A stretch of 44,824 nt of DNA from the NCBI GenBank assembly GCA_018609755.1, contig JAHENZ010000169.1, forward strand, positions 1 through 44,824. Direction: 5' to 3'. A model generated the notes under the pieces. That model ran no database searches and had not been told where the DNA came from. It saw nothing but the letters and a program-made list of their open reading frames with translations. Shown here one piece after another: positions 24,292-34,905 of the stretch. Every line of letters begins with the position of its first letter. Within the stretch, counting starts at the first letter, position 1. Source of the DNA: Salinivenus sp. (lineage in GTDB: Bacteria > Bacteroidota > Rhodothermia > Rhodothermales > Salinibacteraceae). Both the position numbers and the translations under genes were made by a program.

Positions 24292-25965
24292 TCAGGTCGC
24301 GCAGCAGCTGAGCGTTTCGACGTCGCGGTCGAAGGAGAGTGCTGCCAGCTTGATGCCTTCACTGAGCGTGAGGTACGGGTGGAGCAGGTCCGTCAGGTCA
24401 TCGGTGGTCAGACCCTGTTGAATCGCAAGCGCGACTTCCATCAAGAGCTCACTCCCTTCGGGCGCCACGATGCGCGCCCCGATGAGCCGACCCGTCGCCT
24501 GCTCGCGGAGCAGCTTGATGAAACCGCGTGTGTCGTATGCAGCCAATGCCCGTGGCACCTGGTCGAGCGGAAGCGTCGCCACGTCTACGTCGAGGCCCTG
24601 CTCGGCGGCCGCCCGCTCGCCGAGGCCGACGCCCGCCACCTGCGGATCGGTGAAGATGACCCACGGAAGCGGCGTAGCGCGCCGGTCGTGGGCGGTGCCT
24701 TCGAGCGCATTTTCGGCGGCGAGCTGTCCCTCCCGGGCCGCGGTATACACGAAGGCCGGGTCGCCAATCACGTCGCCCGCCCCGTAGATGGACGGAGCGG
24801 CAGTTTGGAGCGTGTTGTCGACCGAAAGGAAGCCGCGCCCGTGGGTCTCAATGCCAAGCGCTTCGAGACCGAGGGTGTCGGTGTTGGCCCGCAGGCCCGT
24901 CGCCACGAGCAAGTCGGTCCCTGTGATTGTGTGCGGCGTCCCGTCGATTTCGACCTCCATCTGAACCGTCCCGTTCGCTCGCTGAACGGCCTGCACTTCC
25001 GTGTTCGTGTGCACCGTGAGGCCCTCCCCCCGGAGATACTCGGTCAGCGCCTCGGCCACGTCCTCGTCTTCCCGAGAGAGGATCTGTTCGGAGCGCTGCA
25101 GAATCGTCACTTCGCTTCCGAGCCGGGAGAAGGCCTGCGCGTTTTCGAGGGCAATGTATCCCCCGCCCCACACAATCAGGTGATCGGGCCGTTCGTCGAG
25201 TGTATAGAGCTCCTCGTTCGTGAGGTAGCCCGTTTCCTCCAGCCCGGGAATGTCGGGCACAAAGGTCCGCGCGCCCGTCGCGAGGAGAATCCGACGGCCG
25301 GTCACGGTCTCCCCGTCCACCTCCACCGTTTGCTCACCTGCGAGACGGGCTCGTCCCTCGCGAAGGGTGACGTCCGGGTCGCCGTTGACAATGTCGAGGT
25401 ACTTGTGCTGCTGGAGGTCGTCGACGAGCCTCTGCACCTGATCGGTGACGGCCCCGAAGTCGGTGACTGTGCTCTCGGACGTGATCCCGTCGAACGGGTG
25501 GTTCGAGGCGTCGTGGTGGGCTTCGGCCGCCCGGATGAGCGCCTTTGAGGGCACGCAGCCGACGTTCACGCAGGTGCCCCCGATCGGCAGCCCGCCCGCA
25601 GCGGGGCCGTCATTGATGATGACGGCCCGGTACCCCAGTTCGCTCGCCTTCAGTGCCGCAGCAAAGGCCGCCGATCCGCCGCCGACCACCACGAGATCGT
25701 ATGCAGGATCGGCTCCGTTCTCCGGTGGGGACCCTGGGACCTCCGAACGGGGCGACGGGACGGAGGCCGAGTATCCTGCGTCCGCGACGGCTATGCGCAA
25801 GTCGTCTGGATCGACGTTGTCGGCAGCGGTAACGGAGGCCCGGCCCTCGGTCCAGTCGTCAAGGCGCACCTCCTCGACGCCTTCGACATCGCGAAGTGCC
25901 TGGGCCACGGTCTCGCCGCACCCCGCGCAGGTCATGCCCTCAATTTCAAGATCGAGCTGTTGCAT
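24292..25965 (-). CDS. merA: Mercuric reductase MerA with N-terminal HMA domain
   Basis: A 557-residue cytosolic flavoenzyme that reduces Hg(II) to volatile Hg(0) with NADPH. Residues 1-70 are the NmerA metal-binding domain with GMTCAGC (Cys13, Cys16). The catalytic core follows: FAD-binding GGGSAAFAAALKASELG, redox GGTCVNVGCVPSK with Cys132 and Cys137, NADPH-binding region GGGYIALENAQAFSRLGSEV, and FAD motif GAGDVIGDPAFVYTAA. The C-terminus ends LSCCAT, the vicinal Cys554-Cys555 pair that only true mercuric reductases carry. It lies 18 bp after merTP and closes the operon. No terminator is evident. Confidence 0.97.
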   Translation of the reverse strand: MQQLDLEIEGMTCAGCGETVAQALRDVEGVEEVRLDDWTEGRASVTAADNVDPDDLRIAVADAGYSASVPSPRSEVPGSPPENGADPAYDLVVVGGGSAAFAAALKASELGYRAVIINDGPAAGGLPIGGTCVNVGCVPSKALIRAAEAHHDASNHPFDGITSESTVTDFGAVTDQVQRLVDDLQQHKYLDIVNGDPDVTLREGRARLAGEQTVEVDGETVTGRRILLATGARTFVPDIPGLEETGYLTNEELYTLDERPDHLIVWGGGYIALENAQAFSRLGSEVTILQRSEQILSREDEDVAEALTEYLRGEGLTVHTNTEVQAVQRANGTVQMEVEIDGTPHTITGTDLLVATGLRANTDTLGLEALGIETHGRGFLSVDNTLQTAAPSIYGAGDVIGDPAFVYTAAREGQLAAENALEGTAHDRRATPLPWVIFTDPQVAGVGLGERAAAEQGLDVDVATLPLDQVPRALAAYDTRGFIKLLREQATGRLIGARIVAPEGSELLMEVALAIQQGLTTDDLTDLLHPYLTLSEGIKLAALSFDRDVETLSCCAT

Positions 25966-25983
25966 ACGAGTGGACGTTCCGGA

Positions 25984-26637
25984 TCAGGAAGAGCTTTTGG
26001 GCTGCGACGGAAACCCCGCGTTCTTCGTCGCTGTCGTTAAGTCCTCAACTGAGACCTTCTCGGGGTCGAAGCGAACCACGGCCTCGGGGGGCTTGAAGGT
26101 TGCTTTCGCGCTGTAAACCCCCTGGACCTTTTCAAGCGAGGTACGGACGGTTTTCGGGCACGCCGCGCAGGTCATGCCCTCCACTTTTAGGACGACCTGC
26201 TGAAACGACGCGGGCGGGGTCGATTCTTCCGACGCGTTCTGTGCCCCTGATACCGCCCTCTGTGCCTGCTGCGTTGCACCACTGGGCGAGACGCCGAGCA
26301 GCCACGGGCTCGCGACGAGGGCCAGCACAACCAGGGCGCCCGCTCCGAGCAGGGAGCGACGCGTCGTCGAGGAGAAGGCTGTCTCGCAGTCGCAGTCCGG
26401 CTGCCGGCTGAGGTGCCACTCGTTGTATCCCGCGTACCCCAGTGCCCCCACGGCCAGAGTCACGAAAATCCATCGATACGGGGCAAGCGCCGTGAGGCTC
26501 CCGATCCACGCCCCGCCGACGCCCAGGCTCACGAGGGCGAGCGGAATGGTGCAGCAGGCCGAGGCGGCCACGGCTGCCCCGAGGCCGGCCCCCATGCTCC
26601 AGTTCGTGCCGGCGTTCGAAGACTTCTGCGAGTTCAT
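25984..26637 (-). CDS. merTP: MerT-MerP fusion mercury uptake protein
   Basis: A 217-residue fusion of the inner-membrane mercury importer MerT and the mercury-binding protein MerP. The MerT part has three helices: the first carries the vicinal pair Cys28-Cys29 (ASACCTIPLAL), and the loop between helices two and three has Cys82-Asp-Cys84. A linker (about 116-143) leads to an HMA domain with GMTCAACP, Cys157 and Cys160, on the opposite side. Fused, MerP can hand Hg(II) straight to the channel. It lies between merR and merA on the same strand, 50 bp after merR and 18 bp before merA, consistent with a merR-merTP-merA operon. Confidence 0.95.
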   Translation of the reverse strand: MNSQKSSNAGTNWSMGAGLGAAVAASACCTIPLALVSLGVGGAWIGSLTALAPYRWIFVTLAVGALGYAGYNEWHLSRQPDCDCETAFSSTTRRSLLGAGALVVLALVASPWLLGVSPSGATQQAQRAVSGAQNASEESTPPASFQQVVLKVEGMTCAACPKTVRTSLEKVQGVYSAKATFKPPEAVVRFDPEKVSVEDLTTATKNAGFPSQPKSSS

Positions 26638-26687
26638 GATGCGTATTGGGTTGGGTTCACGTTCAGTGTAATGGACGGCTTCCTCCC

Positions 26688-27116
26688 TCAGAGGCTCACA
26701 TCCTCAAGTGCGGCGTCCTCTTCCATCACGTCAAGAATCGGGCACTCACTCGTGGGGCCTTCTCCTCCGGTACACGCGGCGGCCAGGGTCGACAACGCAC
26801 TGCGGATGCGCTTTAGGTCTTTGATTTTGGCCTCGACCTCGTCGAGTTTCTCCTCGGCTTGCGCTTTTACGTCACGGCACGTCGCATCGTCGTCGACGCG
26901 TATGTCCAGCAGGCCCTTGATCTCCGAGAGCGTAAAGCCAAGCTCCTTCGCCCGCTGAATGAACCGGAGCCGGTCGACGTAACTCTCGTCGTAGAGGCGG
27001 AAGCCTCCGTCCGAGCGGGGCGGGTTGGGGATGAGGTCCTTTCGTTCGTAGTAGCGAAGCGTCTCGGGATTGACGCCGGCCTTCTCGGCCACTTCGCTTC
27101 GGGTCATTCCGTCCAT
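26688..27116 (-). CDS. merR: Mercury-responsive MerR transcriptional regulator
   Basis: A 142-residue regulator with the MerR helix-turn-helix (SEVAEKAGVNPETLRYYERK, then DLIPNPPRSDGGFRLYDESY) and a long dimerisation helix. Cys80, Cys115 and Cys125 stand at spacings of 35 and 10 residues, almost those of the classical Hg(II) sensor (82, 117, 126), so it should bind Hg(II) in a three-Cys site across the dimer. It is the first gene of the merR-merTP-merA unit and reads in the same direction, whereas classical operons have merR divergent. I could not find a standard mer operator (GTAC-N4-GTAC core) in the flanking gaps. Confidence 0.94.
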   Translation of the reverse strand: MDGMTRSEVAEKAGVNPETLRYYERKDLIPNPPRSDGGFRLYDESYVDRLRFIQRAKELGFTLSEIKGLLDIRVDDDATCRDVKAQAEEKLDEVEAKIKDLKRIRSALSTLAAACTGGEGPTSECPILDVMEEDAALEDVSL

Positions 27117-27257
27117 GGAGGGGGCGGGGGAATAGGTGAGTGGAGAAAGAGAGAAGAGGGCTGAAGAGGGTTTGGGGAACCGTTCGCTGGTGAGGGCAAC
27201 GGCAAGAGCCGGATCACCGCCGGCTGTGCACCGGGCAGGATCCAGATCCGCTGCCCC

Positions 27258-27674
27258 TTATGTGCCGAGTAGCGTCATCACGGGAAGGAGGCCGTAGGCG
27301 AAAAAGACCCCGAGTCCGTAGATACTCGCCGAAATCCAGAACGTCACTTTCTGAAAGCGGCTGGCCACGGCGCAGCCCTCCCCGCCAGCAATCGTGCAGG
27401 CGACCGTTCCGTTCGGGCGGAAGGTGAGGAAGGCACTGAGGGCAATCATGAGCCCTGCTCCCAGAAAGATCCACTCTTTGTTCTGGGAGAGAGGCACGAG
27501 CCAGGGCACCGCCGAAATGAGCGAGACCACGGCCGATCCCCCGGCCACGGCGGCCAGGGCCGACGGGAGGGCGCAGCACAGGAGGGTGCCCGTGCTCGTG
27601 AAGAGGGCCAGAAAATTGGCCGCACGTTGCCGCCACGTGTCGGGCGTGTCGATCTGTTGGTCGGCGTGCTTCAT
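27258..27674 (-). CDS. MerT/MerC-like small membrane protein of the mer island
   Basis: A 138-residue protein with about four membrane helices. Near the start of the first helix is a vicinal Cys pair, Cys33-Cys34, in TGTLLCCALPSALAAV; a loop further on has Cys in TVACTIAGGEGCAVA. The placement of the Cys pair in helix one and the position next to merR point to an inner-membrane metal transporter like MerT or MerC, but I cannot match it firmly to either: MerC has CxxC in helix one. It is upstream of merR on the same strand, 141 bp apart. Confidence 0.75.
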   Translation of the reverse strand: MKHADQQIDTPDTWRQRAANFLALFTSTGTLLCCALPSALAAVAGGSAVVSLISAVPWLVPLSQNKEWIFLGAGLMIALSAFLTFRPNGTVACTIAGGEGCAVASRFQKVTFWISASIYGLGVFFAYGLLPVMTLLGT

Positions 27675-27730
27675 TAGGGGGCGTTAGTCAATCGGGTCGC
27701 AGGTCGAAAGGAATCTCTGAAAGACTCGTC

Positions 27731-28117
27731 CTACCCACCGGTGCCTTTGCTTTTCTGTCCCTTCGAAAATACGGCTGTACGGAATTCATAGCCCGCGCTC
27801 GTTACCGCCTCGCGAAGCGTCTTTTCAGAGAGGGTTTTCTCGTCGCTGAGGGTCAGCACGACGTTCTGCTTTTCGAGCAGAACCGTGGCCCGATCGATCC
27901 CCCCGACCTCTTCGAGCACGCTCTTCATTCGTTGCGCGCAGGCCGAGCAGGCCATGCCATGCACTTGAACGACGGCGTCGGCTGTGTCGGGCACCTGAAC
28001 CCCCGGAGCCGACTCCTGAGCCGTGGCCGTCTGCGGAAGGACCGACAGGACCAGTCCGAGGGCAGCAGCGACGAGGAAAATGGAGCGGACGGAGAGCGTG
28101 GAGGTTCGGGAAGGCAT
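27731..28117 (-). CDS. Exported HMA-domain protein (periplasmic MerP-like)
   Basis: About 128 residues from ATG at 28117, chosen because a signal peptide (SVRSIFLVAAALGLVLSVLP, cleavage after TATAQ near 34) begins there. The mature protein is one heavy-metal-associated domain with HGMACSACAQRM (Cys57, Cys60) and the rest of the beta-alpha-beta fold (LEKQNVVLTLSDEKTL, LREAVTSAGYEF). It should bind a soft metal in the periplasm and pass it to a membrane importer, as MerP does to MerT. It lies 56 bp before the small membrane protein gene and 56 bp after the other exported HMA gene. Confidence 0.85.
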   Translation of the reverse strand: MPSRTSTLSVRSIFLVAAALGLVLSVLPQTATAQESAPGVQVPDTADAVVQVHGMACSACAQRMKSVLEEVGGIDRATVLLEKQNVVLTLSDEKTLSEKTLREAVTSAGYEFRTAVFSKGQKSKGTGG

Positions 28118-28173
28118 TGCTACGGCTGGGGGATTGGTTGAAAACTTGTGTGGAATGTCGCGACTCTTGTCTT

Positions 28174-28701
28174 CTACGTGGCCGAGCGCACCCGCTGAAC
28201 GTGCAGCGGCCATAGCGCACCCTCAGTATTTGGGGAGGCGGGAATCTGTCCCGTTACGGTTACCTGTTGGTTGGGCTTGAGGTCTTGAAGCCGCTGCTCG
28301 TTTGATGTCCCCTCCTGTCCCGGCTGGAGTGCGTATTCCTCGCCGGTGGGCGTTTTTAGGATCCACTGTCCCTCTTCTTGCCGGGCCGTGCCCTGCACTT
28401 TGAGCGTGGCCTCTCGGGGGGAAAAGCCGCCGTTTTCAACGGTCTTTCGGACGCCTCTGTAGTTGATGCGATTCGCTTTTGCCAGATCGACGGTGGCCAG
28501 ACCGTCGTTCAGGCTCACCGAGACGTTTTCGACTCCCTCCATCGATCCTAGGCTCTGCTCCATCGCGTGGGCACAGGGGGCGCAGTCCATACCGAACACT
28601 GTCTGCTCGATTTTCTGGAGCTGTGCCTGAGCGGGTTGAAAAAGCCCTCCGCATGCGAGCACGAGGAGAAGAATGGGCAGTCGTGAAATAAGGGAATTCA
28701 T
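28174..28701 (-). CDS. Exported HMA protein with C-terminal OB-like domain
   Basis: About 175 residues from ATG at 28701, where a signal peptide starts (PILLLVLACGGLF, cleavage near AQA at 24-26). Residues 30-95 are an HMA domain with FGMDCAPCAHAM (Cys40, Cys43). The remaining residues (ATLKVQGTARQEEGQWILKT through LKPNQQVTVTGQIP) read as a five-stranded OB-like barrel similar to small bacterial periplasmic OB-fold domains. I know no standard mer protein with this arrangement. It is the first gene after a 399-bp gap with inverted repeats and probably begins the operon that runs to merA. Confidence 0.82.
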   Translation of the reverse strand: MNSLISRLPILLLVLACGGLFQPAQAQLQKIEQTVFGMDCAPCAHAMEQSLGSMEGVENVSVSLNDGLATVDLAKANRINYRGVRKTVENGGFSPREATLKVQGTARQEEGQWILKTPTGEEYALQPGQEGTSNEQRLQDLKPNQQVTVTGQIPASPNTEGALWPLHVQRVRSAT

Positions 28702-29100
28702 TGCGTAATGTCGTAAATGGGTGCGATGCAACAGTGTAAAGTTGAGCAGTCGACGTGAAATCTGGTAAGCTCCATTAACTGGATGACCCGGCGCCTTGAA
28801 GAAAACGGCGTCTCGGACGGAGCGGAGGACGCAACGACTGAAATCATCGGTGTCTAAGCGAGCCCGCGAGTGAGTTTCTATGATTTCAGTGGAGTCCGAA
28901 GCCCCGTCAGTCGTTTTCTTCACAGCCTTGACCTTTTCGTCCATTTTGGGTCAAGCCAAAATGGACACTCCAAAAATGGATGATAGAGCAACATTTTTTG
29001 GTCCCACGGCCAGTCAGACGGATTCAGAGAGCATCTGGCAATAGCTCTGGAATAAACTTTACAGCATTGGGGTGCGGTGCAAGGGAGCGAAGATCGGGCG
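28702..29100. promoter_or_regulatory. Control region upstream of the exported HMA genes
   Basis: About 399 bp without a credible gene. TCCATTTTGG at 28940-28949 and CCAAAATGGA at 28956-28965 are perfect inverted 10-mers, CCAAAAATGG recurs at 28970-28979, and CTTGACC at 28928-28934 is inverted at 28949-28955 (GGTCAAG). Read on the minus strand, the TTGACC box resembles the -35 boxes of MerR-family promoters, but a matching -10 box is not clear. It is the best candidate for metal-dependent control of the genes running to merA. Confidence 0.45.
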
Positions 29101-29961
29101 TCAGAACCAGTACGTAAAGTTGAACATCAGTCGGAGGTGTTCTTCCTGCGCTTGAGGCACATCCTGATACATTGGAATCAGCAGACCGGCGCTGAGCCCC
29201 CACGCTCCGTAGAGCCCCAGGGTGGTGGGGCCGACGAAGAGCTTCTCACCGCCGGAGCCACTCACAGCCGATCCGTCGTGATGCTCCGGCCCAACGCTTT
29301 CCCCGAGTGCTTCGACGAACAGGCGCCAGTCCGGCGTGGAGGCCCGGCGAAAGTAGCCCGGCCGCCAGCCCAGCACCAGGCTCCCGTATCGGAGGTCGCC
29401 GGGCCGGTCGCCGTCGCGAGCCGCGTAGTGCTGATATCCGCTCCCGGCCCAGGCATACACTGAGCGCGAGGCGTATCCGGTCACCGCCGCCAGATGGACG
29501 CCGGGGCCCGAGCGGCGCCCCTGAACATAATCTCGAGTCGGGTACAGGCCGCCGACGAGTAGCGTCGACTCGAATCGCTTCCCGACGCCCAGGTACTGCC
29601 GGTGGAATCGCCAGTAGGTGGAGATTTCCAGAGACGAGAGCCCGCCCATCATCGTCCCGCCGCGGGTGGTGGGAGAGGCCGGGGGCGACCGGAGGGCCAC
29701 CGGCACCGAGGCGTTGAGCTGTAGGTGCTGGGTGAGCCCGTACCAGAGAGACTGTCGCGTCATGAGGCTGCGCTCGCCGGTGCCCACTGACATCAGGGTC
29801 GAATTGTAGTTCCATCCGCCCTGCGGGAGGGTTGGAGTCGCGAGCCCAAAGGCCGGTCCATGCCCGCCCTGTCCCGCAGCAGGGGAGGCGAAGCCAAGCC
29901 AAAGCAATCCGGCCACAACGCAGACGCTTTGAATGTGGGATGTGGAGAGGTGCGGAATCAT
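29101..29961 (-). CDS. Putative outer-membrane beta-barrel protein of the metal island
   Basis: About 286 residues from ATG at 29961; the ATG at 29991, 2 bp past the ATPase stop codon, is an equally possible start and adds 10 residues. A signal peptide ends near AAGQ (about residue 31). The mature protein shows alternating hydrophobic strands, many Gly, Tyr and Trp, and ends in Phe (LMFNFTYWF), as expected for an outer-membrane barrel. It has no Cys-rich metal site. It follows the P1B ATPase gene directly, so it probably takes part in metal passage across the outer membrane; that role is inferred from context only. Confidence 0.75.
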   Translation of the reverse strand: MIPHLSTSHIQSVCVVAGLLWLGFASPAAGQGGHGPAFGLATPTLPQGGWNYNSTLMSVGTGERSLMTRQSLWYGLTQHLQLNASVPVALRSPPASPTTRGGTMMGGLSSLEISTYWRFHRQYLGVGKRFESTLLVGGLYPTRDYVQGRRSGPGVHLAAVTGYASRSVYAWAGSGYQHYAARDGDRPGDLRYGSLVLGWRPGYFRRASTPDWRLFVEALGESVGPEHHDGSAVSGSGGEKLFVGPTTLGLYGAWGLSAGLLIPMYQDVPQAQEEHLRLMFNFTYWF

Positions 29962-29993
29962 CGATGTCTCACGTGATGCAGTTGAGGACATGT

Positions 29994-32453
29994 TTAGGAA
30001 TGGACCGCTTCTTTCGAGAGGGGCTGCCCCACGCTTCGAATCGTGTCGGTAAACAGTTTGCTCCGACCCCAGAGGGAGTTGACGAAGATTGCGGAGACGC
30101 TCGCTGCCATCGCCCCCATTGCCCACACCGGGTGGAGGAGGCCGGTGGCGGCGATCGGAATGCCGATCCCGTTGAAGAGGAAGGCCAGTGCCACGTTCTG
30201 CGTCATCTTGCGGTACCCCCATCGGCTGATCTCGTAGGCGTCGTGGATGGCCGTCAGGCGATCGGTCATGATAATGACGTCGGCCGACTCGATGGCAATG
30301 TCGGTGCCGGCGCTCAGGGCGATGCCTACGTCGGCCTGCATGAGGGCCGGTGCGTCGTTGATGCCGTCGCCGACCATCACGACCCGGGAGCCTTTCTCCT
30401 GCATCGAACGCAGGTGCTCGGCTTTTTCGTCGGGAAGGACCTCGGCACAGACGGTGTCGATTCCGACCTCCTCGGCAATGGCCCGGGCGGTCCGCTCGGT
30501 GTCACCGGTGAGAAGCTGTGTCTGCAGGCCGGCTTCGTGGAGCCGATCAATGGCCTCGCGGGCATCGTCCTTGAGCGGATCCCCGATGGCCAGCAGTCCG
30601 CGAAGCTGTCCCTCCCACGCGACGCCCACGACCGTCATGCCCCGGTCCTGAAACGCCGCAATCTGGTCTCGGTGGGCACCCGGCTCTATCGATTCAGTCT
30701 CGTCGAGGTATCGTAGGCTGCCGACCCGAATGCGGGTGCCGTCGACCCGGGCTTCGACGCCCTTGCCGGTAACCGAAGAGAAGTCCTCGGCCTCCGGCCA
30801 CGACAGGTTCCGCTCAAGGGCTGCCTCTACGATTGCCTCGGCCAGCGGGTGCTCCGAGCGGGCTTCCACCGCAGCGGCGGCCGTAAGCAGGTCGTCGGCA
30901 CTTGTATCGCCGCTCGGCACGTGGTCCCAGACGGTGGGGGTCCCTTCGGTCAGCGTCCCAGTCTTGTCCAGGACCACGTGCCCAACGGCGCGAAGTGCCT
31001 GAAACGACTCGCCAGTGCGCATGAGAATGCCGTCGTCGGCGGCCTCGCCCGCGCCCCGGACGATCGAGAGCGGCGCCGAGATGCCCACGGCGCACGGATA
31101 GCCCATCACCAGCACGCTCAGGCCCGCAAACAGGGCACGCTCCACGTCGGCCGTGCCCGTCAGCCAGAGCGTGCCCAGTCCCCATCCCAGGCCCGCGAGG
31201 AGCGACAGCGCGAGCACGGTGGGCGTGTAGATCCGGAGCACCCGGTCCACGAGGTGGAGAAGACCCGGCTTCAGAGCCTGCGCCTCCTCGATCTGGCGGG
31301 CCACCTGGTTCAGGAAGCTCTTCTCTCCCGTAGCGGTCACCTCGACCAGGAGCGTACCCGTCTGATTCATGGAGCCCCCGATCACCTCGTCACCTTCCGT
31401 TTTGTCCTCGGGCATCGGCTCGCCGGTTACCAGGGACTCGTCAACGCCGCACCGACCCTCGAGCACGACGCCGTCGACCGGCACCTTCTCGCCGGGACGA
31501 ACCCGGACGCGGTCCCCTTCCTCGACCGCGTCGACGGGCACTTCCGTCTCCTCTCCGTCACGGACGACCCGGGCGGTGTCGGGCTGCAGGTCCAGGAGCT
31601 TCTTGACCGACTGCGCACTGCGGGTCTGCACAATGAGGGCCAGCCACTCCGAAAAAAGGTGATAGGTGAGCACCATCACCGACACGGCAAAGAACGCCGC
31701 CGAGGGAAAGCCCGGCAGGGCCGTGCCCAGCCCGATCGTGCCCCCGATCAGTCCCGCAAACGCTCCCATTTCCACGAGAACGTGCTGGTTGAGAATGCCG
31801 CGACGAAGTGCCTGGCCTGCCTTCTTCAGAATCGACAGGGCCAACCCGAAGACCATGGCGAGAGCAAAGCCCCCAACGATCCAGGGCACCGAGGCTTCGA
31901 TCGCGCCGGTGTGCTGTAGGGCAAACAGCCCTCCGCCGAGACCGGCCAGGCCGGCACTGCCTCCGAGGGCGACCGCCGGCCCCGTGCCTCGAAGCACCAG
32001 GTAGCCGAAGGCCACGAAGCTCAGAAAGACGACCGCCGACAACGCAAACGACCACAATGCCCCCGGATTCGCAATCAGAGCCACCGTCGCCAAGCTCAGG
32101 GCTATGGCGGCAAAGAAGCGGCGCCCTTCGTGGGCGAGCTTCGCCTCCTGCTCCTCGAAGGGCTGTGTCTTCCGCGGGTCGGCAATTGAGTAGCCCACGT
32201 CCCGGAGCGTCTGGACGAGGACCTCCGGCCCCACCGTGTCGGGGTCGTACTCGACGAGGGCCTGCTCGTGGGTGAGGCTCACTGCGACTTTGTTGACGCC
32301 CGGTTGGTTTCCGAGAGCCTGCTCAATCGTGCCCGTACATAGGGAGCAATGCATTCCGCCGATGCGCGTGCGGAGACGGCGATGCCCGTCGTGTCCTGTC
32401 GGCTCGTCCTGAAACAGGCGCTCTTTGGTCTCCTCGGCGAGCGTCGTGGGCAT
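29994..32453 (-). CDS. P1B-type heavy-metal ATPase with Tyr-Pro-Cys membrane motif
   Basis: About 819 residues from ATG at 32453; an upstream in-frame start at 32675 would run through the preceding HMA gene. An N-terminal HMA domain has GGMHCSLCTG (Cys36, Cys39). About eight helices, the actuator VTGEP, DKTGTLTEG with Asp496, SEHPLAEAI (the P1B His-Pro), and GDGINDAPALMQADVGIAL follow. In the ion-binding helix the motif is GYPCAVG (Tyr452-Pro453-Cys454), not the Cu-type Cys-Pro-Cys, so the metal is not the obvious Cu(I). In this setting Hg(II), or another soft metal, is a reasonable guess. It pumps metal out of the cytosol. Confidence 0.9.
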   Translation of the reverse strand: MPTTLAEETKERLFQDEPTGHDGHRRLRTRIGGMHCSLCTGTIEQALGNQPGVNKVAVSLTHEQALVEYDPDTVGPEVLVQTLRDVGYSIADPRKTQPFEEQEAKLAHEGRRFFAAIALSLATVALIANPGALWSFALSAVVFLSFVAFGYLVLRGTGPAVALGGSAGLAGLGGGLFALQHTGAIEASVPWIVGGFALAMVFGLALSILKKAGQALRRGILNQHVLVEMGAFAGLIGGTIGLGTALPGFPSAAFFAVSVMVLTYHLFSEWLALIVQTRSAQSVKKLLDLQPDTARVVRDGEETEVPVDAVEEGDRVRVRPGEKVPVDGVVLEGRCGVDESLVTGEPMPEDKTEGDEVIGGSMNQTGTLLVEVTATGEKSFLNQVARQIEEAQALKPGLLHLVDRVLRIYTPTVLALSLLAGLGWGLGTLWLTGTADVERALFAGLSVLVMGYPCAVGISAPLSIVRGAGEAADDGILMRTGESFQALRAVGHVVLDKTGTLTEGTPTVWDHVPSGDTSADDLLTAAAAVEARSEHPLAEAIVEAALERNLSWPEAEDFSSVTGKGVEARVDGTRIRVGSLRYLDETESIEPGAHRDQIAAFQDRGMTVVGVAWEGQLRGLLAIGDPLKDDAREAIDRLHEAGLQTQLLTGDTERTARAIAEEVGIDTVCAEVLPDEKAEHLRSMQEKGSRVVMVGDGINDAPALMQADVGIALSAGTDIAIESADVIIMTDRLTAIHDAYEISRWGYRKMTQNVALAFLFNGIGIPIAATGLLHPVWAMGAMAASVSAIFVNSLWGRSKLFTDTIRSVGQPLSKEAVHS

Positions 32454-32497
32454 GGTAGACTCGGCGTGTGTTTGGGAAGGCGGAGCGGACCGTCCGG

Positions 32498-32752
32498 TCA
32501 CGAGTGCGTGGGAGAGTAGCCGGCCTTCTCGATCGCGCCGAGAATAGCGTCCGGCGACGTCCGGTCCGCGTCGTAGCGAACCGTCGCCGTTTTTTCCTCC
32601 AGGTCGGCGGAGGCGGACCGTACGCCGTCGAGGCGGCCAAGGACCGTCTGCACACGCTTCACGCAGCCGCTGCACGTCATGTCCGGAACGTCAAACGCTG
32701 TTCGCTTTCGTTTCACGGCAGGTTTTGGAGTCGAATCATCATGAATGTGCAC
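32498..32752 (-). CDS. Small cytosolic HMA metallochaperone
   Basis: An 84-residue CopZ-like protein: after a His- and Lys-rich N-terminus (HIHDD, VKRKR) comes one HMA fold with PDMTCSGCVKRVQTVL (Cys27, Cys30) and TATVRYDADRTSPDAILGAI. The GTG start at 32752 has an AGGAGG box only 2 bp upstream, closer than usual, but no other start in frame fits. It lies 44 bp before the P1B ATPase gene on the same strand, as metallochaperone genes often do, and should deliver metal to that pump or to its HMA domain. Confidence 0.85.
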   Translation of the reverse strand: MHIHDDSTPKPAVKRKRTAFDVPDMTCSGCVKRVQTVLGRLDGVRSASADLEEKTATVRYDADRTSPDAILGAIEKAGYSPTHS

Positions 32753-32980
32753 CCCCTCCTATGGGTTGTAGTGTAGTACAGGGTTCCACTGCAGCCGACC
32801 TCTTCATCTTTTATTTATAAAAAAGACAGTTTGTTTTTCCAGGCGGAGGCTCTGCGCCCTTTGGTGTAACGGTTCGGGATCGAATGTGACTGTACTGTGG
32901 GTTTCGCGAACGACCTCGAAGTGGAGGGATACGTTTCGATCACGCATGTACTCATTCATTCCCGACCGAACGTATTCGCC
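32753..32980. promoter_or_regulatory. Divergent promoter region of the metal island and the double AhpD gene
   Basis: 228 bp between divergent genes. A strongly AT-rich block near 32808-32836 (TTTTATTTATAAAAAAG) is unusual for this GC-rich chromosome and is a likely promoter core for one or both genes. GTGTAGTACA at 32771-32780 is a short imperfect dyad near the minus-strand start. No confident operator can be named. Confidence 0.4.
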
Positions 32981-34158: not shown

Positions 34159-34905
34159 TTATGGCTCGGGAGAGATCCAGCTGTACACGACCAGAAACAA
34201 CACCGTCCCCAGCACCAGCATCCCGCCCGCGAGGAACAGGCCGTATTGCCGGACGATGGGCAGAACCGTGCTCCAGATCGACGGCGACCGCGCCTCTTCA
34301 AACACCGGATCCTCCGTCGAGGTCGGCGTAGCGCCAGCCTCGGCGACGGGCACCGACAGCGACGCGGTCACCGTCGAGGGCCGGAGGCACGTCCGGTCGT
34401 TGCAGGCCTGCACGCGCAGTCGGCCTGTGAGGCGGTGCTCGCCCGGTTCCGTTCCTTGAGCGGGACGCACCGTAAAGAAAATGGGAGCCCGTCCTTCGTA
34501 CACGTCGATCGCGTCCCCCGCAAAGTCCAGCTCGAACCGCTTAGGCTCCGGATACCGAACGTCGTCGATCGTCACGTCGGAAGAAGTGCCCCAGTCGAGG
34601 GTCGTGCCGATCAGGTAGTCGAACGTCGGCCGGTGGGCGTTGACGTGCCATCCCTCCTCCACCTCAAGCACGAGCGCACCGTCGACGCTCTGCCCGGCGG
34701 GCACGGGCGTGGCCGCCAGTCGCGTCTCTACGGACACGAGGTCCGCGCTCGACGACGGGCGGGTCGAATCTGCTTCAAACTGCTCCTGGAGGTCGCCGCC
34801 CGGGTTCCTCTCAGTCTGAGCCTGGAGGGCCTCCGTCCCCATCCCGAACAGCAAGAGAACCCCCAGGAAGAGAGTAGTCACTGCGCCCCGGTTTCGAATA
34901 CGCAT
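34159..34905 (-). CDS. Stand-alone DsbD alpha-domain protein with membrane anchor
   Basis: A 248-residue exported protein: signal peptide to about residue 30, linker, then a domain (about 58-185) matching the N-terminal domain of DsbD, with GWHVNAHRPTFDYLIGTTL and the Cys pair Cys168/Cys173 in QACNDRTCLRPST. A single helix near 222-243 anchors the C-terminus. In DsbD this domain takes electrons from the membrane domain and reduces periplasmic thiol proteins. Here the DsbD membrane and thioredoxin domains are absent, so electrons must come from a separate CcdA-like protein elsewhere or the domain has another task. Confidence 0.85.
   Translation of the reverse strand: MRIRNRGAVTTLFLGVLLLFGMGTEALQAQTERNPGGDLQEQFEADSTRPSSSADLVSVETRLAATPVPAGQSVDGALVLEVEEGWHVNAHRPTFDYLIGTTLDWGTSSDVTIDDVRYPEPKRFELDFAGDAIDVYEGRAPIFFTVRPAQGTEPGEHRLTGRLRVQACNDRTCLRPSTVTASLSVPVAEAGATPTSTEDPVFEEARSPSIWSTVLPIVRQYGLFLAGGMLVLGTVLFLVVYSWISPEP

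Follow-up and report, generated by a model that had tools for sequence, protein, structure and literature searches.

A mer operon joined to a putative trans-envelope soft-metal module in a Salinivenus genome

Why should a mercuric reductase gene close a row of nine genes that also encodes six HMA domains, a P1B ATPase and a predicted outer-membrane barrel? We addressed this question in a window of 44,824 nucleotides, the whole stretch of DNA analysed here, from Salinivenus sp. (assembly GCA_018609755.1, contig JAHENZ010000169.1). The island occupies positions 24292-32752 (8.5 kb) and all its genes lie on the minus strand, in the order, from 32752 down to 24292, CopZ, P1B ATPase, barrel, HMA1, HMA2, CCmem, MerR, MerTP and MerA. 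The original prediction placed the six HMA domains in a small chaperone, the ATPase, two exported proteins, MerTP and MerA. All six are indeed above the Pfam cut-off of 24.8 bits (PF00403; CopZ 76.4, ATPase 52.6, HMA2 50.6, MerTP 49.5, HMA1 43.7 and MerA 28.8 bits), and the whole genome (5.02 Mb) has 12 HMA matches, half of them here. It also named an outer-membrane barrel-like protein and a second membrane protein with a cysteine pair, and both hold up: the first is predicted to have 12 strands, the second (CCmem) three helices with four invariant cysteines. We revised the starts of the ATPase (32453), the barrel (29991), HMA1 (28701) and HMA2 (28117), and added the MerR gene to the gene list of the island. 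Longer open reading frames for the ATPase (893 aa) and HMA1 (256 aa) were discarded, as relatives and overlaps argue against them.

The island is best read as a mer operon that has recruited a trans-envelope module for soft metals, itself largely undescribed. The island is composite, since its merTP-merA pair, which is usual for the class, occurs without the module in a congener, and the other genes recur elsewhere as a module of their own. This second unit consists of CopZ, a YPC ATPase, the 12-strand barrel, the two exported HMA proteins and CCmem. Chance clustering of unrelated HMA genes is ruled out by the linkage of these genes across genomes. Empty-site comparison with congeners gave no clean insertion site because the left flank is conserved and the right flank is rearranged in them. 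Near the island, positions 34159-34905 encode a membrane-anchored protein with a DsbD N-terminal-type domain (PF11412).

The two units of the island

The mer unit is easily recognised. MerA (24292-25965) has an N-terminal HMA domain and a C-terminal Cys-Cys, scores 535 bits against TIGR02053 (cut-off 454), and has mercuric reductases as its closest solved relatives, the best being 5x1y, with an alignment that reaches the terminal Cys-Cys. MerTP (25984-26637) carries the MerT and MerP transport domains of mer operons within one protein (PF02411, 67.9 bits, and the HMA domain) and is the only match to PF02411 in the genome. Against the NCBIfam MerTP equivalog it scores 102 bits where the curated cut-off is 180, and is therefore a divergent fusion. 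Among 240 genomes of the class, 35 have merA above cut-off, and its usual setting is ArsR (or MerR)-MerTP-MerA (26 loci checked). The congener has ArsR-MerTP-MerA, with 74% (MerTP) and 73% (MerA) identity to the window, and the other island genes are absent from it.

The regulator (26688-27116) belongs to the MerR family and has Cys80, Cys115 and Cys125, which occupy the positions of Hg/Zn/Cd sensors. Its best solved relative is 4ua1, the Hg-MerR of Bacillus megaterium (111.6 bits, three cysteines aligned). It misses the NCBIfam MerR equivalog (137 vs 151 bits) and narrowly passes one Zn-regulator model (145.7 vs 143). The position of the first cysteine distinguishes sensors of +1 from sensors of +2 ions (PMC9909328, PMC3431237).

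The module begins with a CopZ-like cytosolic HMA chaperone (32498-32752), for which an alternative start is possible near 32716, relatives beginning close to the MTCxxC motif. The ATPase (29994-32453) is of P1B type with an N-terminal HMA domain. It passes the copper model TIGR01511 (459 bits, cut-off 397) and among solved structures is closest to Cu(I) pumps (3j09, E 3.5e-130, vs ZntA 4umv, E 6.8e-87). Nevertheless, it lacks the CPC metal-site motif of P1B-1 Cu(I) ATPases, in place of which it and six relatives have YPC. This YPC ATPase (E < 1e-150) was found in seven of the 240 genomes of the class and CCmem is close by in all seven (hypergeometric p 8e-10).

Three proteins of the module are predicted to be exported. 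The barrel (29101-29991) has a signal peptide and 12 predicted strands (AlphaFold2, pLDDT 82). Foldseek matches it to FapF (E 1e-8) and to the COG4313 channel 4rl8 (E 1.6e-7), with TM of about 0.6-0.7; no model of Pfam, PF13557 included, or of NCBIfam matches it. HMA1 (28174-28701) has a conserved C-terminal extension and an N-terminus, MNSLISRLPILLLVLACGGLFQPAQA, that reads like a signal peptide; its relatives in module loci are 34-44% identical. HMA2 (27731-28117), the second putative exported HMA protein, also has a signal-peptide-like N-terminus, and related proteins are present in module loci. The barrel and HMA1 genes are separated by a dispersed repeat of about 175 bp with inverted repeats (28793-28967), of which five further contigs of the genome carry partial copies (71-85% identity). 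This repeat may split or drive the operon. An RNA element in the 400 bases upstream of HMA1 was considered and rejected, as there is no Rfam match and the stretch is the dispersed repeat.

CCmem (27258-27674) is the membrane protein of the module. All 49 sequences compared share its Cys33, Cys34, Pro37, Cys93 and Cys101, and AlphaFold2 predicts three long helices in a moderate-confidence model (pLDDT 75). In profile-profile comparison it matches MerT with the cysteine pairs aligned (hhalign 95.9%, E 6.5e-9). No Pfam or NCBIfam model matches it, PF02411 included, so it is filed as MerT-like and not as a member of MerT. Its predicted fold finds no useful match among PDB structures, its profile no match among PDB sequences, and the window CCmem as query no match in a plasmid search. 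As far as sequence profiles can tell, CCmem is a remote relative of MerT. MerT is a known importer, and import through CCmem is plausible given this likeness.

The module across genomes

A survey of one genome per species gave at least 76 CCmem loci in over a dozen phyla, 75 of which were analysed. Among the matches listed, 71 of the 75 loci have an HMA protein of the same cluster family within 5 kb of CCmem, nearly always on the same strand. Among these matches, 37 of the 75 loci have, close to CCmem, a barrel from the same superfamily as that of the window, and 34, mostly in Pseudomonadota, have a protein of a second family, which only its sequence suggests to be an outer-membrane barrel. 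With this second family included, CCmem is accompanied by a barrel-like protein in about 71 of the 75 loci among the matches listed. The full triad of CCmem, exported HMA protein and barrel-like protein is found in about 71 of the 75 among the same matches. The original prediction depended on these genes being linked in relatives, and they are, both in the triad and in the constant pairing of the YPC ATPase with CCmem. Most module loci lack this ATPase. Within the class, CCmem is present in 15 genomes, plus one weak match with stops, and the module there includes CopZ, the YPC ATPase, in some cases a lipoprotein, CCmem, the barrel, HMA1 and MerR. We found no account of the module in open-licence literature on merTP/merK, on P1B ATPases with YPC and mercury, on mer and the outer membrane, on GDCCVxC proteins and on mer in Rhodothermus. 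The core triad may merit a name of its own.

Some module loci have additional features. In Balneolota, a DUF7482 lipoprotein is encoded between the ATPase and CCmem in some loci, and a GDCCVxC (seleno)protein gene follows the module in three (L031, L036 and L039), two of which (L031 and L039) also have ArsR-MerTP and a glutathione-reductase-like enzyme after it. In Hyphomonas-type loci (L123, L127, L133 and others), CCmem and HMA are preceded by a small exported protein rich in Cys, Met and His and by a barrel-like protein of another kind; L123 has a SCO1-like gene nearby. A broken module of the class (L043; G029:C1, 8700-12300) has a CCmem with an internal stop and a MerR in two frames, and beside it lies a C-terminal remnant of MerA that is 75% identical to the window MerA.

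How often does the module meet mercury genes? Calditrichota, Aquificota and Balneolota are among the lineages in which CCmem recurs within or adjoining mer genes. One Calditrichota locus (L078) reads MerR-MerTP-barrel-HMA-CCmem-MerA on one strand, a second (L085) has the same order from MerTP onward, and a third (L077) is like the second but runs to the contig end inside MerA. The order is CCmem-barrel-HMA-MerR-MerA-MerTP in L098 and CCmem-barrel-HMA-MerT-MerP-MerA in an Aquificaceae locus that ends at the contig end (L109). In two Balneolota loci (L086 and L080), ArsR-MerTP comes after the module, together with a GDCCVxC protein and a MerA-like reductase. Three independent close linkages of CCmem and MerA have a chance probability of about 2e-5. 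On a quick CCmem tree with long branches, mer linkage requires at least seven changes, and the window CCmem clusters with mer-linked copies from Ignavibacteriota and Calditrichota (SH-aLRT 92). Co-occurrence of the module with merA is real in several lineages but far from general: MerA is above cut-off in 12 of 50 CCmem genomes and in none of the other 38, merA is missing from the neighbourhood of most module loci, and within the class the two are together only in the window and in the broken remnant.

Mercury, copper or both

We favour a mercury-resistance locus that joins the merTP-merA unit to a conserved envelope-spanning module, and hold this view with about as much confidence as doubt. 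It draws on domains, fold predictions, gene linkage, the remote relationship with MerT, the MerR cysteines and operators in relatives. Under this scheme, Hg(II) would be sensed by MerR. A soft metal, either as such or complexed with thiol or chloride, would cross the outer membrane via the barrel, and the exported HMA proteins would pick it up and pass it to CCmem or MerT, with reduction by MerA in the cytoplasm. CopZ and the ATPase might clear the cytoplasm of stray Cu(I)/Ag(I), or of soft metal entering alongside. We infer that Hg(II) is the main substrate, CCmem an importer and the barrel a metal pore, as well as the role of the ATPase. The original prediction described an extended relay, from periplasmic capture by two HMA carriers through import by MerTP or CCmem to reduction by MerA, with export by the ATPase in parallel. 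Its parts are real, linked and recurrent, and CCmem is MerT-like, but the relay and the parallel export are themselves inferred, and merA is usually not adjacent.

Operators in relatives bear on this choice. The module promoters of Balneola and of L113 read TTGACT-CCGTACCAAGGTACAGGGCT-TATATT and TTGACT-TCGTACTATGGTACAGGGCG-TAAACT, both with a 20-bp spacer. Two mer operons of the window's class have TTGACT-CTATACGTAGGTACAGGGCT-TATCCT (L163) and TTGACT-CTATACTCAGGTATAGGGCT-TATCTT (L167), and the site ahead of MerT/MerP in L117 is TTGACT-CCGTACTTGGGTACGGCGTT-TATGCT. TTGACT, a GTAC-type dyad and the 20-bp spacer are common to these three mer operators and to the module operators of Balneolota, Fidelibacterota and Spirochaetota. 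We built a core model from ten MerR-type operators of module and mer loci and scanned both strands of the window. The best match, CTGTACTACACTACAACCC (32756-32787, minus strand), lies just upstream of CopZ and scores 15.5 bits, against a null maximum of 10.6 +/- 2.2 and a largest value of 19.9 in 60 shuffles. Both its -35 and its -10 are weak, and the window has no clear TTGACT operator. As a MerR-type operator this site is suggestive only, and the ATPase half of the island may be under separate control.

It is possible, though doubtful, that the island instead sets a module for handling copper and silver (CopZ, YPC ATPase, barrel, HMA1, HMA2 and CCmem) beside an independent, standard merTP-merA, the two having been made adjacent by chance or by multi-metal selection. 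Much of what speaks against a mercury locus speaks for this alternative: the ATPase has Cu(I) pumps as its closest relatives and exceeds the copper-model cut-off, the module is without merA in most relatives, and merTP-merA occurs without the module. Furthermore, one CCmem region has a copper setting in Vibrio. It lies inside a protein annotated as heavy metal-associated domain-containing on a Vibrio alginolyticus plasmid (L187; NZ_CP119336.1, 6147-6677), in a copper island; copA- and copB-type genes adjoin it, and the island also encodes a multicopper oxidase, a cupredoxin and a GDCCVxC protein. MerRs of the Rhodothermus type, like those of some other module loci, have no cysteine at the first position, which separates +1 from +2 sensors (PMC9909328). 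The lack of a clear TTGACT operator in the window and of a PDB fold match for CCmem also weighs against the mercury reading. Yet several features are at odds with mere neighbours: the window MerR keeps each of the three Hg/Zn-type cysteines and has Hg-MerR as its closest relative, the Calditrichota module sits between MerTP and MerA, the CCmem tree shows repeated changes in mer linkage, and the module operators of Balneola look like those of mer. The module may serve soft metals (Cu(I)/Hg(II)) in general, with the metal set by regulator and partners. Import without reduction would be harmful, hence metal or direction may differ in loci without merA.

An improbable alternative is that the module is a MerA-independent defence that exports soft metal, the ATPase delivering it to the periplasm, the exported HMA proteins catching it, the barrel releasing it outside and CCmem serving in retrieval or export; this would suit a dedicated YPC ATPase found only with the module, a set that includes a barrel and the frequent lack of MerA, but the ATPase is absent from most module loci, CCmem is related to an importer, and no periplasmic adaptor or RND partner was recognised in the set.

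Beyond the mercury reading of this island, we tentatively propose, as a real possibility though one slightly less likely than not, that CCmem, an exported HMA protein and a 12-strand outer-membrane barrel together provide soft metals with an undescribed route across the envelope, one that spans phyla, was recruited several times to mercury detoxification and gives mer a dedicated outer-membrane component. In the standard mer scheme, Hg(II) diffuses into the periplasm and the operon has no outer-membrane protein (PMC3466566). The passage of Hg(II) through the outer membrane would become testable with a barrel that accompanies an exported HMA carrier and a MerT-like protein and lies within the mer operons of several phyla. 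The triad without merA, partly in copper settings, would be a widespread unnamed soft-metal system.

Comparison with known systems

The island shares with mer operons a MerR, a fused MerT/MerP and a MerA with N-terminal HMA domain and C-terminal Cys-Cys. It differs from the narrow-spectrum operon by the addition of the barrel, two exported HMA proteins, a second MerT-like protein, CopZ and the P1B ATPase; an outer-membrane component and a P-type ATPase are both absent from the mer gene list of Boyd and Barkay 2012 (PMC3466566). Its MerTP and MerA are close to those of the ArsR-MerTP-MerA operon of Rhodothermia (74% and 73% identity to the congener), but the window has no ArsR, whose place is taken by MerR and the module.

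Among the module proteins, CCmem resembles the MerT family (PF02411) in its three helices, in the Cys-Cys-x2-Pro of helix 1, in two cysteines between helices 2 and 3 and in the profile-profile match. It differs in having no Pfam match, in its own conserved LFTSxGTLxCCALP signature, and in its partners, a barrel and a separate HMA protein that is exported. The ATPase is similar to CopA, a P1B-1 Cu(I) ATPase, in its HMA domain, DKTGT and the QNxxxxxxxN of its late helices, whereas YPC replaces CPC and Phe-Asn the helix Tyr-Asn. Finally, the barrel is akin to the COG4313/PF13557-type outer-membrane channels of 12 strands, in its predicted strands, in its Foldseek matches to 4rl8 and FapF and through a relative in L113 that matches PF13557; it stands apart from them by the lack of a Pfam match of its own and by an identity of 10-15% to solved structures.
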